Positions 2,054 through 26,507 of a DNA stretch of 37,658 nt are shown here, piece by piece. Location of the stretch: IMG/VR virus record IMGVR_UViG_3300020442_002599, positions 1-37,658 of that record, one strand, 5' to 3'. The translations under genes and the position numbers were made by a program. The notes under the pieces are model-generated. The model searched no databases and had not been told where the DNA came from. It saw only the letters and a program-made list of their open reading frames with translations. The first letter of the stretch is position 1. Every line of letters starts with the position of its first letter. The DNA comes from a virus.

Positions 2054-3097
2054 ATGGAGTATTTAGATTTAGTTTTAAAAGGACAAGTGTATCTTTTCCT
2101 AATAGTATTTGTAATGATGATTGCAGGTATGGTGAAAGAAAACAGTTTATTTGATGATGTGTTTTGTTTCTTTGAACAGAATCTTAAAAGTAAAAAAGCA
2201 GTTGTAGCCGTGGTCAGTGCTATTACAGGACTACTACCTATTAAAGGCCGTGTCACAGTAAGTGCAGGACTATTAGAAGCACTTGCACCAGACAAAGGTT
2301 GTTGTGGCAGAGAAAAGTTTGGCCCAATTGATTATGTAAGTACACATCACTATTACTTTTGGTCACCACTAGAAAAGACAGTCATTCTACCTATGGCGGC
2401 ATTTGGATTGACTTACACAGCATTCATGGGAATCATTTGGCCATTACTAGCAGTATCAGTAGCATTTATTATTTCTTATCTAGTTTGGGGTGTAAAAGAA
2501 AGTGAAATTGAACTTAACGATTGTACACGACAAATTAAAGTAAGTAGAATTACTAGATACGTACTGCCGTATGTTGCAGGTGTTGGTGCTATTATTGCAG
2601 GAATTAATTTTCTCTGGGCATTTGGTGCTCTCACATTGTATTATATGATTGTGACACGAACATTTGATATTCCAAAACTTATAAAATATGTTGATTGGAA
2701 ACTAGTTGCTTGGGTAGCACTTATTATTTTTGCGGCAAATGTGGTAAGAGAAAACACAGAAGCAATAAAAACATTTTTAGAATCAAGTGGACTAGATATA
2801 AACACAGTAAGTGGTTTTACTCTGCTGAGTTTGGCTAGTTTTGCAGGTGCATTCGCATTAGGCTCTAGTTCGCGATTTGGTGCCCTTACAGTTCTAATGG
2901 CAAGTATATACGGTATAGAGTACCTACCTTGGTTTTTTGCAGTAGATTTTGTAGGATATTTGATAAGTCCAATGCATAAATGTGTAGCAATTGGTATGTT
3001 GTATTTTGGTACAAAATTACGGTATTATGTAACAATATTAGGTGCATGGGGCGGATTAGTAATAGCTACAGCCGGAATTGGATTAATCTTTTCTTGA
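2054..3097 (+). CDS. polytopic membrane protein, DUF401/ion-transporter-like permease
   Basis: A 347-residue integral membrane protein with roughly nine to ten hydrophobic segments. It starts on the base after the guaC stop, so the two are very likely cotranslated. Two halves each contain a re-entrant-like motif: GLLPIKGRVTVSAG near residue 59 followed by THHYYFWSPLEK, and ASFAGAFALGSSSRFGAL near 262 followed by a YLISPMHKC segment. This layout resembles the DUF401 branch of the ion-transporter superfamily, whose members show a GLLP-x-GG motif and an SPxHLC motif; I judge this by pattern memory, not by alignment. The substrate is unknown. Position beside guaC suggests a metabolite or nucleobase link, but that is a guess. 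The -35 box of the hsp20 promoter lies over its stop codon. Confidence 0.75.
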   Translation: MEYLDLVLKGQVYLFLIVFVMMIAGMVKENSLFDDVFCFFEQNLKSKKAVVAVVSAITGLLPIKGRVTVSAGLLEALAPDKGCCGREKFGPIDYVSTHHYYFWSPLEKTVILPMAAFGLTYTAFMGIIWPLLAVSVAFIISYLVWGVKESEIELNDCTRQIKVSRITRYVLPYVAGVGAIIAGINFLWAFGALTLYYMIVTRTFDIPKLIKYVDWKLVAWVALIIFAANVVRENTEAIKTFLESSGLDINTVSGFTLLSLASFAGAFALGSSSRFGALTVLMASIYGIEYLPWFFAVDFVGYLISPMHKCVAIGMLYFGTKLRYYVTILGAWGGLVIATAGIGLIFS

Positions 3098-3124
3098 CAA
3101 CTTCCGAAAAAGATTGTATAAATA
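3094..3124 (+). promoter_or_regulatory. sigma70-like promoter of hsp20, overlapping a TATAAATA late motif
   Basis: TTGACA at 3094-3099, a 17-base spacer and TATAAA at 3117-3122. The same -10 reads on as TATAAATA (3117-3124), which is the T4 late promoter consensus, so one site could serve early/host and late transcription. The expected transcript start is near 3129. Confidence 0.75.
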
Positions 3125-3128
3125 ATAG

Positions 3129-3207
3129 TGTAGAAAGAGGAAAGAGTCCTTTTACTACTAGATTGCCCAATAGGGGATCTATAATTAATCTTGCTTAATA
3201 AAGGAGA
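3129..3207 (+). promoter_or_regulatory. ROSE-like RNA thermometer leader of hsp20
   Basis: The leader can fold into three hairpins. Hairpin 1 pairs AGGA (3138-3141) with TCCT (3147-3150), extended by AAA/TTT around a bulged G. Hairpin 2 pairs AGAT and CCC (3160-3168) with GGG and ATCT (3173-3180). In hairpin 3, TTGCT (3191-3195) faces the Shine-Dalgarno AGGA (3202-3205): T-A, T-G, one unpaired G, C-G and T-A, extended by C3190-G3206 and T3189-A3207, with loop TAATAA. The motif UYGCU opposite AGGA with an extra G is the hallmark of ROSE elements of alphaproteobacterial small heat-shock genes. The fold is from manual pairing. Confidence 0.6.
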
Positions 3208-3212
3208 AAACA

Positions 3213-3683
3213 ATGACAAGACTAACAACTCTAGACTTAACCCCACTACATAGACACATGGTAGGATTCGACAGAATGTTCGATGAAATGGACAGGCTGT
3301 TTGAAAACAGTGTAAATAGCCAGGGGTATCCTCCATACAACATTGCTAAACTAGACGAAGAAGGAAACGAATTTATGGTTTCACTTGCAGTCGCAGGGTT
3401 TGGTATGGACAATCTAAACATTACTAAAGACGGTAATGCTTTGAAGATTGAAGGTACAACTCCAAAAGGAGAAGACAAAGTTAATTACCTACACAAAGGT
3501 ATTGGCGGCAGAAGCTTCCGTAGAGAGTTCACCCTTGCTGATCACGTAGAAGTGAAAAATGCAGAATTAGCAAATGGTATGCTAAACATTCATCTTGTAA
3601 GAGAGATACCAGAAGAGTTACAGCCTAAAAAGATTGAAATCAATGCAGGCAAAACTATTGAAGGTACATCAACTGACAAGTAA
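3213..3683 (+). CDS. small heat-shock protein Hsp20 (IbpA-like)
   Basis: ATP-independent holdase chaperone that binds unfolding proteins. The 156-residue protein has an N-terminal amphipathic arm (residues 1-35, FDRMFDEMDRLFEN, as in IbpA), an alpha-crystallin domain from about 40 to 138, and the hallmark GMLNIHLVREIP end of that domain. Length equals the family norm. Strong Shine-Dalgarno AAGGAG lies seven bases before the ATG. It has its own promoter (3094-3122) and a leader that could act as a thermosensor. T4-like marine phages often carry hsp20, where a role in capsid or fibre folding or in host stress has been proposed. Here it is followed by clpS, which suggests a proteostasis cassette. 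Confidence 0.93.
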   Translation: MTRLTTLDLTPLHRHMVGFDRMFDEMDRLFENSVNSQGYPPYNIAKLDEEGNEFMVSLAVAGFGMDNLNITKDGNALKIEGTTPKGEDKVNYLHKGIGGRSFRREFTLADHVEVKNAELANGMLNIHLVREIPEELQPKKIEINAGKTIEGTSTDK

Positions 3684-3728: not shown

Positions 3729-4040
3729 ATGAATACTGAAACTATTGAAGAAGTCAAACTCGACGAAAAAATCGAGAAAACAGTTATTGATCCTGGAAAA
3801 TACCATGTGGTATTTTTAAATGACGATCAAACTCCTATGGAGTTTGTTATTGAAGTCTTGATGGGTATTTTTAAACATTCAAGAGAAACTTCAGAAAAAA
3901 TTACACTTGATGTCCACACAAACGGAAGTGCAATAGTAGGTACATACAGTTTTGAAATAGCAGAACAAAAAGGTACTGAAGCCACTTTAGCGGCTAGGAA
4001 TGCAGGCTTCCCGTTAAATATACGTGTGGAGAAAGCATGA
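3729..4040 (+). CDS. clpS: ClpS adaptor of the Clp protease (N-end rule)
   Basis: ClpS binds N-degron proteins (Leu, Phe, Tyr or Trp at the N-terminus) and hands them to ClpAP. The 103-residue protein shows the full family pattern: YHVVFLNDDQTPMEFVIEVL at residues 25-44, the pocket residues N31, D32 and D33, then DVHTNGSAIVGTY with H63, and EIAEQK at 77-81. The spacing between the NDD motif and the histidine equals that of E. coli ClpS (N34 and H66). The 20-residue acidic/lysine-rich N-terminal extension resembles the flexible arm that engages ClpA. Its stop overlaps the heme oxygenase start as ATGA. ClpS and the ClpP at 11216 sit in the same genome, but no ClpA is in this window, so it would act with host ClpA. 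Confidence 0.92.
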   Translation: MNTETIEEVKLDEKIEKTVIDPGKYHVVFLNDDQTPMEFVIEVLMGIFKHSRETSEKITLDVHTNGSAIVGTYSFEIAEQKGTEATLAARNAGFPLNIRVEKA

Positions 4041-4603
4041 GTAATTTAAAAGAATTAACTTGGGAACACCATAAAAACGCGGAGAGACAATCCTACGTAA
4101 AGGTGTTAATGAGTGGAAAAATAAATCCAAAGTTTTATGCAACATATCTTTGGAACCAACATAAGAAATACGACCTATTAGAAGCACTAGCAGGTGCTCA
4201 AGGTTGTTTAGATGATTTACCTGACATAAGACGTAAAATGAAGATCGAACAAGATTTTCTTGAACTATGGAAAGACGAAGAGCAACCGCCTGTTGTCCAA
4301 AGCACTCGTGATTACATTATGCATATGAAAGAAATTATGAATGATCCGGACAAACTAATGGCTCATGTGTATGTTTTACATATGGGTGATTTGAGTGGTG
4401 GACAAATGATTGCACGTAAGGTACCAGGTGAAGGTCGTATGTATCAATTTGATACTGATAAAAAAGAACTAAAAGAATTGATTAGAGCAAAAACCAATGA
4501 TGACATGGCAGATGAAGCTAAGTTTGTATTTGAGTCTGCAACTAAACTGTTCCAAGATTTGATGGAGTTAGATATTGAGCATTATATGGAACAAACTGAT
4601 TGA
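4037..4603 (+). CDS. heme oxygenase (HO1/HemO-like)
   Basis: Oxidative opening of heme to biliverdin, Fe(II) and CO, using reduced ferredoxin. The 188-residue all-helical protein has the proximal-ligand segment TWEHHKNAE, with H12 in the place of the conserved histidine (H-x3-E spacing), and the distal-helix motif HMGDLSGGQ at residues 115-123. That is the cyanobacterial and plant pattern GDLSGGQ. It is shorter than cyanobacterial HO1 (about 240 residues), mostly at the C-terminus. Translation is coupled to clpS (ATGA), and the downstream bilin reductase starts inside this gene. The product biliverdin is the substrate of that reductase, so the pair forms a two-step pathway. Release of heme iron could be a second benefit. 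Confidence 0.92.
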   Translation: MSNLKELTWEHHKNAERQSYVKVLMSGKINPKFYATYLWNQHKKYDLLEALAGAQGCLDDLPDIRRKMKIEQDFLELWKDEEQPPVVQSTRDYIMHMKEIMNDPDKLMAHVYVLHMGDLSGGQMIARKVPGEGRMYQFDTDKKELKELIRAKTNDDMADEAKFVFESATKLFQDLMELDIEHYMEQTD

Positions 4604-5267
4604 TTGCAAAGATGATATAATTGCAATTTTTGATGAACAAGCCAAAGAAATAGACGAACCAGGATTAGATTATTTTAATAGGCCTGACAGTGGTTGGATA
4701 AACCGTGTTTGGGCTAATGATTATGTCCGTAGAGCCCACATCGATGTAGTAGATGCTAGAGATACAAAAGGCTTATGGATGATGCATGTATGTATTTTTC
4801 CTACTTTAGATAATCCTGCTCCTATATACGGTTTTGATGTTATAGCTGGTAAAAACAAAATGACTGGTGCTTTTCATGACTTTTCGCCAAGTTCAGATCC
4901 TGACCATCCTATGATACAAGGTTATTACGACAGTGTAGAACACTTTGTACCTGAAAAGCCACGTGAGCTTCCTGAGTGGGCAAGGAACATTTTTACAGGT
5001 AAAATGCTGGCCGCAGGTAATGTAAAAACTGACGAAGAAGCTACAGAAATTATACAAATAGCACTAAGCAATCTACATGCTTATTTTGAAGAAGTAGGAG
5101 AAACTAAAGGAGAAGGACCTCCAGACCTAGTTGCCGCTTGCCAAAACTACTATTGCGAGAACCAGCAACAAAACCCACATACAGCCAACGTAATGAAGTC
5201 ATTAGGACTTCCAGAAGCAGATGTAGATCGTTTCTGCACTGATATGCTGTTTCCTAAAATTGCATAA
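4575..5267 (+). CDS. pcyX: ferredoxin-dependent bilin reductase, PcyX-like
   Basis: Reduces biliverdin IXa, probably to phycoerythrobilin if it is a true PcyX. The 230-residue protein has FDBR hallmarks: PIYGFDVIAGKNKMTGAFHD around residues 83-102, with D102 of the DFSP motif in the place of the catalytic Asp (D105 of PcyA), and a C-terminal NYYCENQQQNPHTANVM block (178-194) ending in MLFP. These segments are closer to PcyA than to PebA or PebB. No in-frame ATG exists before residue 69, so the start is TTG at 4575, seven bases after GGAG, inside the heme oxygenase gene (29-base overlap). PcyX is known from oceanic viral metagenomes beside heme oxygenase. PebS-type identity is less likely; only pigment analysis can settle the product. 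Confidence 0.88.
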   Translation: MSIIWNKLIDCKDDIIAIFDEQAKEIDEPGLDYFNRPDSGWINRVWANDYVRRAHIDVVDARDTKGLWMMHVCIFPTLDNPAPIYGFDVIAGKNKMTGAFHDFSPSSDPDHPMIQGYYDSVEHFVPEKPRELPEWARNIFTGKMLAAGNVKTDEEATEIIQIALSNLHAYFEEVGETKGEGPPDLVAACQNYYCENQQQNPHTANVMKSLGLPEADVDRFCTDMLFPKIA

Positions 5268-11032: not shown

Positions 11033-11223
11033 ACGATGGTCCATTTGTAACAACCGCTCAAGAAGATATTTCAGACGGTGTATTTTTAAAAGAAGTAACA
11101 GTATATAAAGTCCGAGAAGGTATGATAGTAAAAGAGGTAGCAACTAGAAGATATATGAAGGATGGTGACTATCATGATACATCTTCAACTACTCCACTGA
11201 AAGAGGTAAAACAAGATGCCTAA
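11029..11223 (+). CDS. small protein of unknown function upstream of clpP
   Basis: 64 residues, acidic start, central strands [20 protein letters not shown] and a threonine-rich tail. Overlaps the preceding gene by four bases and clpP by eight, so it is firmly inside the operon. The sequence shows no motif. Confidence 0.6.
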
Positions 11224-11800
11224 TTTAGTGCCAGTAGTCATAGAAAAAGAAGCACGTGGTGAACGTAGCTATGACATTTATTCAAGATTGTTAAAAGATA
11301 GAATTATCATGTTAGATACTGAAGTAAGTCAGACTTCAGCAAGTTTAATTGTAGCACAAATGCTGTTTTTAGAATCACAAAACAAAGAAAAACCAATTAG
11401 GTTTCATATTAATAGTCCAGGCGGTAGTGTAACGGCAGGAATGAGTATATATGATACCATGCAGTATATTAAATGTCCAGTTCATACTATTGTAATGGGC
11501 ATAGCGGCAAGTATGGGTAGTTTCTTAGCCAGTGCCGGAGAAAAAGGCAAAAGATTTGTGTTACCGAATTCGAGACATATGATTCATCAACCACTAGGCG
11601 GAACATCAGGACAAGCTAGTGATGTTGAAATACAATACAAAGAATTACAATTCTGGAAAGATAGACTTACAGATTTGTATGCTAAACACACCGGTCAATC
11701 TGTAGATATTTTGCAGGCTGATATGGATAGAGATAACTTCATGAGTGCGGAAAAGGCAGTAGAATATGGACTCGCAGATAGTGTCATCGAAAGTCGCTGA
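11216..11800 (+). CDS. clpP: ClpP-like serine peptidase
   Basis: Proteolytic barrel subunit of the Clp protease. The 194-residue protein has an intact catalytic triad: S99 in [10 protein letters not shown]124 in [10 protein letters not shown], and D173 in [19 protein letters not shown]. The oligomerisation and strand motifs [20 protein letters not shown] (65-84) are also present, and the N-terminus ([23 protein letters not shown]) matches ClpP after prohead-style removal of the leader, so it may need no processing. The length is that of mature ClpP. No head-maturation context (portal or capsid genes) is near, so a cellular ClpP role is more likely than prohead protease. Together with clpS at 3729 it suggests steering of host Clp proteolysis. 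Confidence 0.93.
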
Positions 11801-24833: not shown

Positions 24834-25092
24834 CTACTTTAAAGAAAGTTATCAAAAAAGTAAATTAGCATTTTACTGTGAAGTATTTGAAACTATACTT
24901 TTAGTGACAGGTAGTGCAATATTAAGTTTTACAATATTAGATCCTGCAACAAAAATATTTGTGCCTCTGTATCTAATAGGCAGTATCCTAGCTATGGTAA
25001 GCACATACATTAGACGTAGTAGTGCAATACTACTAGTTACTTGGTTTGCTGTAATGAACACTTGGGCGTTTGTCCAATTGTTTGTTATATAA
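24808..25092 (+). CDS. small membrane protein with three spans
   Basis: About 94 residues from ATG 24808 (the frame is open from ATG 24754, but that would overlap uvdE by 80 bases). A basic N-terminal helix is followed by three membrane segments ([56 protein letters not shown]). No recognised family. The stop codon is part of TATAAATA. Confidence 0.6.
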
Positions 25093-25095
25093 ATA
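25088..25095 (+). promoter_or_regulatory. late promoter TATAAATA before sodC
   Basis: Exact T4 late consensus, containing the stop codon TAA (25090-25092) of the upstream gene. The ATG of the superoxide dismutase follows after four bases, so the predicted message is leaderless. Confidence 0.6.
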
Positions 25096-25099
25096 CTTT

Positions 25100-25648
25100 A
25101 TGCGTTTATCAGACCTACCAAATTGTACTAGAACTAAAGCAAATACTTGTTATTGTGAACATATATCTTTGAAAGAAGATAAAGACCAAGTGATAACTGC
25201 TACATCTGTATTAGTTCATTCTGATAAAGTAAAAGGAAAATTTTTATTTAAACAAAAATCCGGAGGCCCTACTATGATTGTAGGCCGAGTAACAGGCTTA
25301 GAGCCGGGACTACACGGATTTCATATACATGAATTTGGAGATTTAAGCAATGGATGCGAATCAGCTGGAGCTCACTACAATCCTGACGGAGTCGATCATG
25401 GAGATCTTGAAAAGGGTCATGTTGGCGATTTGGGAAATATTAAAGCAGATTCTTCCGGTACGGCCAAAGTTGAAATAATAGCAAAGAGAGTAGACTTGAT
25501 AGGTGATAGAAGTATAGTAGGCAGAGCTATTGTTGTTCATGCTGACGAAGATGATTTAGGAAAAGGCGGTGATGATGAATCTTTAAAGACAGGCAATGCA
25601 GGGGACAGATTGGCCTGCGGAGTTATAGTTATAAAGGAGGACAAATGA
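25100..25648 (+). CDS. sodC: Cu/Zn superoxide dismutase
   Basis: Converts superoxide to H2O2 and O2. All ligands are present in the 182-residue protein: Cu by H75, H77, H92 and H148; Zn by H92, H100, H107 and D110; disulfide C86-C173; and the guiding arginine R170 in [21 protein letters not shown] and HVGDLGNI are classical. Unlike bacterial SodC, there is no signal peptide; instead a 35-residue start with C9, C17 and C19 ([13 protein letters not shown]). The enzyme would act in the cytoplasm or be packed in virions. ATG 25100 is chosen over TTG 25070, which lies within the preceding gene. With the peroxiredoxin at 7830 it completes superoxide-to-water detoxification. Confidence 0.93.
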
Positions 25649-26156: not shown

Positions 26157-26507
26157 ATGTCAATAGTTACACTTACAGACAAAGCAAAAGCTAAAATTAA
26201 TGAGCTTTGTGCAGAAAAAAATGCCTTTGCAGTCAGTTTAAATTTAAAAGGCGGAGGATGTGCCGGATTTGAATATGACTGGGGATTTGTTGAAGAATCC
26301 AAACCAGGAGATGAATTAATTAATACAGGAACAGGAAATTTAGTAATTGGAAAAGAAAGTATTATGTTTTTATTCAATACTGAATTAGACTACGTTAGTC
26401 AGATATTTGGATCAAATTTTGAAATACGTAATCCAAATGCTAAAAGTTCTTGTGGTTGTGGAGTAAGTGTAAATTTTGATTTTGAAAAGCTAAAAGTACC
26501 TGCTTAA
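26157..26507 (+). CDS. A-type iron-sulfur carrier (IscA/ErpA/SufA-like)
   Basis: Holds and passes Fe-S clusters to client enzymes. The 116-residue protein has the three diagnostic cysteines, C35 in LKGGGCAGFEYDW and C99 and C101 in SSCGCGVSVNF, and the usual beta fold with LDYVSQIFGSNFEIRNPNA. Length is the family norm. Phage homologues of this kind are known from marine T4-like phages. Here it lies just before the giant fibre gene and behind a late promoter, so it is probably made late; it may supply host ferredoxin or other Fe-S proteins, on which the bilin reductase depends (inference). Confidence 0.92.
   Translation: MSIVTLTDKAKAKINELCAEKNAFAVSLNLKGGGCAGFEYDWGFVEESKPGDELINTGTGNLVIGKESIMFLFNTELDYVSQIFGSNFEIRNPNAKSSCGCGVSVNFDFEKLKVPA

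Follow-up and report, generated by a model that had tools for sequence, protein, structure and literature searches.

We report that the leader of the hsp20 gene in a 37,658-base IMG/VR virus record (the window) is very probably a ROSE-like RNA thermometer belonging to a phage branch of these elements, and that such elements probably form a viral chaperone regulon. The widespread structured RNA is real and not the product of chance. The window carries phage-type genes (e.g., with PHROG matches to phage DNA ligase and Hsp20), and the features of the leader and its surroundings are listed in Table 1.

Table 1. Promoter, leader and gene features around hsp20, in positions of the window.
Feature	Position	Strand	Basis and remarks
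-35 box TTGACA	3094-3099	+	sequence; 17 nt before TATAAA (3117-3122)
TATAAATA, -10 box and T4-late-type promoter box	3117-3124	+	sequence
Hairpin I	3130-3158	+	folding; present in only part of the relatives
Hairpin II	3159-3181	+	unpaired G3165; tip CCC-AAUA-GGG; conserved and covarying
Hairpin III	3189-3207	+	thermosensor candidate; unpaired G3193
hsp20, small heat-shock protein, 156 aa	3213-3683	+	Pfam PF00011, E 9.5e-16; PHROG 432, E 1.8e-35
CAAGA of codons 2-3	3217-3221	+	complement of UCUUG 3189-3193; may act as alternative partner, suggestive only
clpS, next after hsp20	3729-4040	+	Pfam PF02617, E 9e-27

RNA folding of positions 3129-3212 predicted exactly three hairpins, with an energy of -21.2 kcal/mol compared to -13.4 kcal/mol (sd 2.9) in dinucleotide shuffles (z -2.67). 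Folding thus recovered the three hairpins that a preliminary description of the sequence had claimed for an 84-base leader; the claimed TTGCT facing AGGA, with one unpaired G and two further pairs, was likewise present in hairpin III. There, the anti-Shine-Dalgarno CUUGCU (3190-3195) is opposed to its Shine-Dalgarno partner AGGAG (3202-3206). The UUGCU/AGGA pairs are U3191-A3205 and U3192.G3204 on one side of the unpaired G and C3194-G3203 and U3195-A3202 on the other, extended by two outer pairs (C3190-G3206 and U3189-A3207) and one inner pair (U3196-A3201). Hairpins II and III are conserved across the family, and three hairpins are not the norm. Judged by sequence, TTGACA-17-TATAAATA (3094-3124) is predicted to act as a consensus-like sigma-70 promoter and as a T4-late-type box. 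Either reading would place the transcript start at about 3130, and the 84-base leader length given earlier is therefore about right. A promoter scan did not pick up the box at 3094-3124, because it demands T as the last -10 base. Of 112 relatives, 93 have TAAATA in the 90 nt preceding the element, compared to 17.9 expected, and the unpaired G sits 14-18 or 41-51 nt after the late-type box.

In 40 hsp20 relatives on viral contigs, down to 44% identity, the same layout was found before the gene: a hairpin with varying stem sequence, followed by a near-invariant CU(U/C)GCU...AAGGAG. Two DNA-pattern scans that were blind to protein, one for a GAAA form and one for a UUCG form, identified the two-hairpin element in at least 240 viral contigs. 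Among the listed matches of the GAAA form (at least 120), hsp20 was behind 117, dnaK behind 2 and a contig end behind 1. Among those listed for the UUCG form (at least 120), which is typical of cyanophages, hsp20 was directly behind 102 by sequence search; truncated ORFs, most with an Hsp20-like beginning, were behind 7, and a small ORF came first in 11, with hsp20 directly downstream in 11 of 11. The small ORFs at these 11 loci form a family of 61-98 aa without good Pfam or PHROG match (e.g., L223 9561-9785 and L288 6071-6367, plus nine similar). The element was also detected before groES (L015, L019 and L079), groEL (L078) and dnaK (8 loci), as identified by Pfam, and the contig often had another copy in front of its hsp20. 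At five loci (L078, L079, L106, L193 and L194), groES, groEL or dnaK share an island with hsp20, clpS and a GMP reductase-like gene. Nearly all of the hsp20 leaders sampled from T4-like marine phages have this design. In Prochlorococcus phage P-HM1 (L170 942-996), the annotated GTG start of hsp20 falls inside the RNA element, and translation probably starts at the ATG behind AGGAG.

The element was also located by covariance models. Model R2, trained on other phages without the window, matched 3158-3207 (54.1 bits, E 4.9e-12) as its sole match in the window, and no element was thus found before clpS; Melnitz-3 was matched by R2 with an E of 4.8e-10. Model R3 found 34 sites, one or two per genome, in 29 of 30 phage genomes, S-TIM5 alone being without a match, and the R3 sites examined were chaperone leaders with the exception of one before a 75-aa ORF. 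The independent tests are those of R2 on the window and on Melnitz-3, because most R3 sites helped build R3. In L192 (G008), a second good match to the element (1024-1074, 35.7 bits) lies before a 75-aa ORF that is no recognised chaperone. An earlier MAFFT alignment (A1) and its model (R1) were set aside due to misaligned stem arms, and A2/A3 with R2 and R3 were used instead.

Comparison of homologous phage leaders for compensatory changes, a check proposed in the preliminary description, gave a strong signal in hairpin II. Over 69 distinct sequences with a fixed GAAA tip, 92% of stem cells were paired compared to 71% with shuffled partners, and 127 cells carried a double change compared to 39.9 (sd 7.8) in shuffles. 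The covariation score was 0.62 compared to at most 0.16 in slid controls, a shift of register killing the signal. A wider alignment of 65 sites, which had been fitted to the structure, scored 0.43 compared to 0.15. The unpaired G of hairpin II lies between a Y-R pair and CC/GG. Little covariation was found in hairpin III, as this hairpin hardly varies: its unpaired G is invariant, and the one frequent change, U.G to C-G, is exactly how U(U/C)GCU varies among ROSE elements. In the S-TIM5 leader, CCACGCUUUUUCAAGGUGG, a different Shine-Dalgarno sequence is accompanied by a partner changed to match and the unpaired G is retained, as judged by eye in this one sequence.

We compared the element to the described thermometer families. 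By the published definition (PMC3669281), a ROSE-like element has U(U/C)GCU imperfectly paired with the Shine-Dalgarno sequence in the 3'-proximal hairpin and one or more further and more stable 5' hairpins, belongs to the 5' UTR of small heat-shock genes, and opens for translation on heating. The phage family has UUGCU or UCGCU in this position, hairpin II on the 5' side, and, in the window, hsp20 at 3213 behind a promoter-predicted start; on opening by heat, folding predictions were equivocal. Four consecutive U against the Shine-Dalgarno sequence, which mark a fourU element, are absent, the anti-Shine-Dalgarno being CUUGCUU. At gathering cut-offs, Rfam gave no match in the window leader or in 20 related loci; in a permissive search, ROSE_3 (RF02523) was the top family (3157-3218, 25.4 bits, E 0.0013 for 171 nt searched). 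Scores with ROSE_3 in these phages were 21-36 bits (best relative 35.8) compared to a cut-off of 43, and neither the window nor its relatives thus reach the score of at least 43 for Rfam membership. The best ROSE_3 match in whole phage genomes was the hsp20 or dnaK leader (E 8.6e-8 to 5e-3). Permissive matches to freshwater-2 (E 0.6) and preQ1-II (E 1.8) were rejected as driven by the shared start signal AAAGGAGAAAAC. In a record named 'Pseudomonas phage Y7' (unverified, possibly host DNA), the hsp20 leader scored 69.2 bits with ROSE_3, which therefore describes the Pseudomonas ibpA type; this leader was weakly picked up by the phage-trained R2 (16.9 bits, E 0.11). As the phage element agrees with the published motif definition and misses the Rfam cut-off, we name it ROSE-like and not a member of Rfam ROSE_3. 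The original proposal of a ROSE-like thermometer before a phage hsp20 is thus supported by conservation, covariation, gene association and the sub-threshold ROSE_3 match, and a temperature response would be expected on the model of known elements.

The view that this geometry is diagnostic of Alphaproteobacteria and points to an alphaproteobacterial host was not supported. Cultured carriers include phages of Methylophilales (Melnitz-3), Agrobacterium (Atu_ph07), Synechococcus and Prochlorococcus (S-ShM2, Syn33, P-SSM3, S-RIM2 and others) and, with divergent forms, Pelagibacter of the SAR11 group (HTVC103P and HTVC115P), and the closest Rfam family matches the Pseudomonas-type element. ROSE elements are known from both alpha- and gammaproteobacteria (PMC3669281). 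An alphaproteobacterial host of the window phage cannot be read from the element. Blast with one cyanophage leader as query reached 323 phage genomes. When 84,980 species of bacteria and archaea were scanned with a strict pattern, matches turned up on three contigs, all with the gene order of these phages, which are therefore read as phage DNA in metagenome-assembled genomes; on these grounds, a host origin was rejected for the element as defined by the strict pattern. The three (L161, L162 and L163) are metagenome-assembled genomes, two of Halobacteroidaceae and one of Neomarinimicrobiota, with phage DNA seemingly inside.

Other genes of the window were noted. Directly behind hsp20-clpS (4037-5264) are genes for a heme oxygenase and then a ferredoxin-dependent bilin reductase (Pfam PF01126 and PF05996), a pair that constitutes a phage HemO-PcyX-type pigment cassette. 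A ClpP-like protease is also encoded (Pfam PF00574), and superoxide dismutase-like and IscA-like proteins were recognised by eye only; the coordinates for these three are, jointly, 11216-11800, 25070-25648 and 26157-26507.

In the proposed mechanism, the late/sigma-70-type promoter at 3094-3124 would fire and the leader would fold. Hairpin II, backed by covariation, would be stable; hairpin III, backed by conservation and folding, would be weak, and its CUUGCU, with a U.G pair and one unpaired G, would cover the hsp20 Shine-Dalgarno sequence. When the infected cell warms, hairpin III would melt first, the ribosome would bind and Hsp20 would be made. That heat melts hairpin III and raises translation is what we infer from the Pseudomonas ibpA design. 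The element is also found before dnaK, groES and groEL and may therefore work as a virus-borne chaperone regulon, the association being observed and the regulation presumed. Folding programs gave the expected closed-to-open trend on warming for the window leader, both by itself and extended by 28 coding bases. Family-wide, with the first 12 coding bases included, the temperature trend in Shine-Dalgarno access was nearly gone by nearest-neighbour folding, a type of model that does not describe the non-canonical ROSE core; the trend is weak because codons 2-5 offer the anti-Shine-Dalgarno strand another partner. The outcome of the folding comparison with control genes depends strongly on the amount of coding sequence included, and two-state energies were dropped as too model-dependent.

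The alternative pairing is reflected in codon choice. Codon 2 is ACA in 55 of 57 MTR starts compared to 49% for threonine codons in other places. Synonymous choice over 29 N-terminal types favours pairing, with a mean rank of 0.27 (null 0.5, standard error 0.054) compared to 0.43 for control genes and about 0.5 for three of four scrambled strands. Thus, the pairing of codons 2-5 with the anti-Shine-Dalgarno strand is probably not random. As the sequences are related and start regions have a codon bias of their own, we put forward only as a hypothesis, and as a rather doubtful one, a bistable thermometer on hsp20, dnaK, groES and groEL, in which the anti-Shine-Dalgarno would pair with either the Shine-Dalgarno sequence (off) or codons 2-5 (on) and the coding start would have been selected for this in unrelated chaperones.

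Other explanations of the leader were weighed against a thermometer, a reading that has against it that most hosts live in the sea, where temperature swings are modest. The element could mask the Shine-Dalgarno sequence in response to a protein or small RNA (e.g., the phage translational repressor RegA, or Hfq) instead of temperature. The presence of regA next to or near hsp20 in S-CAM7, ACG-2014f, P-HM1 and C48C1 and the weak predicted temperature response in coding context would fit such a signal. We consider it improbable, however, since the element is restricted to operons of chaperones, genes of the kind that a heat sensor would be expected to control, its core, UYGCU, is a known heat-sensing motif, and no regA lies beside hsp20 in the window or near relatives.

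A stable 5' hairpin can protect mRNA, and the transcript, by its predicted start, would open with hairpin II or I. The 5' hairpins might thus mainly shield a late transcript from RNases and set a constant low translation without switching; this account leaves the invariant imperfect anti-Shine-Dalgarno, the unpaired G and the restriction to chaperones without explanation, and we regard it as very improbable. That the hairpins arose by chance in an AT-rich leader, as the Rfam score under cut-off and a fold z of only -2.7 might suggest, is barely conceivable given conservation and covariation in hundreds of phages, and the compensatory variation already refutes chance.

The ROSE-like thermometer favoured here is closest in design to the two-hairpin ROSE element of Pseudomonas ibpA, whose control by temperature has been demonstrated by probing and with reporters (PMC3669281). 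Like that element and ROSE_3, the phage forms have a stable first hairpin with an unpaired G by the CC/GG tip and a second that pairs U(U/C)GCU with the Shine-Dalgarno sequence of a small heat-shock gene. By contrast, they have shorter tips (CC-GAAA-GG and CC-UUCG-GG), an A/U-rich hairpin III loop and late-type phage promoters, and also front dnaK, groES and groEL. The U(U/C)GCU core masks the Shine-Dalgarno sequence of small heat-shock genes in Bradyrhizobium hspA ROSE1 and E. coli ibpA as well (PMC3669281), although these have three to four hairpins, whereas the phages usually have two and the window three. Temperature-sensing RNAs in phage or prophage leaders are represented by lambda cIII and the SP-beta blyA fourU thermometer (PMC4166951, PMC10586365), which are single cases and not a family, without ROSE motif or chaperone genes. 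Synechocystis hsp17 is likewise a thermometer of a small heat-shock gene, in a cyanobacterium (PMC4166951), but has only one short hairpin, where cyanophages have the two-hairpin, ROSE-like form. Previous descriptions place ROSE elements in bacteria and, as regards heat-shock genes, link them to the small heat-shock class (PMC4166951). No earlier description of phage ROSE elements turned up in full-text searches of mostly open-access literature.

Repetition of the ROSE-like design before Hsp70 and chaperonin genes, in viruses, extends it beyond the bacterial small heat-shock setting. In the ocean, temperature becomes a candidate input to infection by viruses, and the conserved element suggests that phage chaperones may be made when infected cells warm. 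Hsp20 is a core gene of cyanomyophages, and the element offers a handle on the purpose of phage Hsp20.
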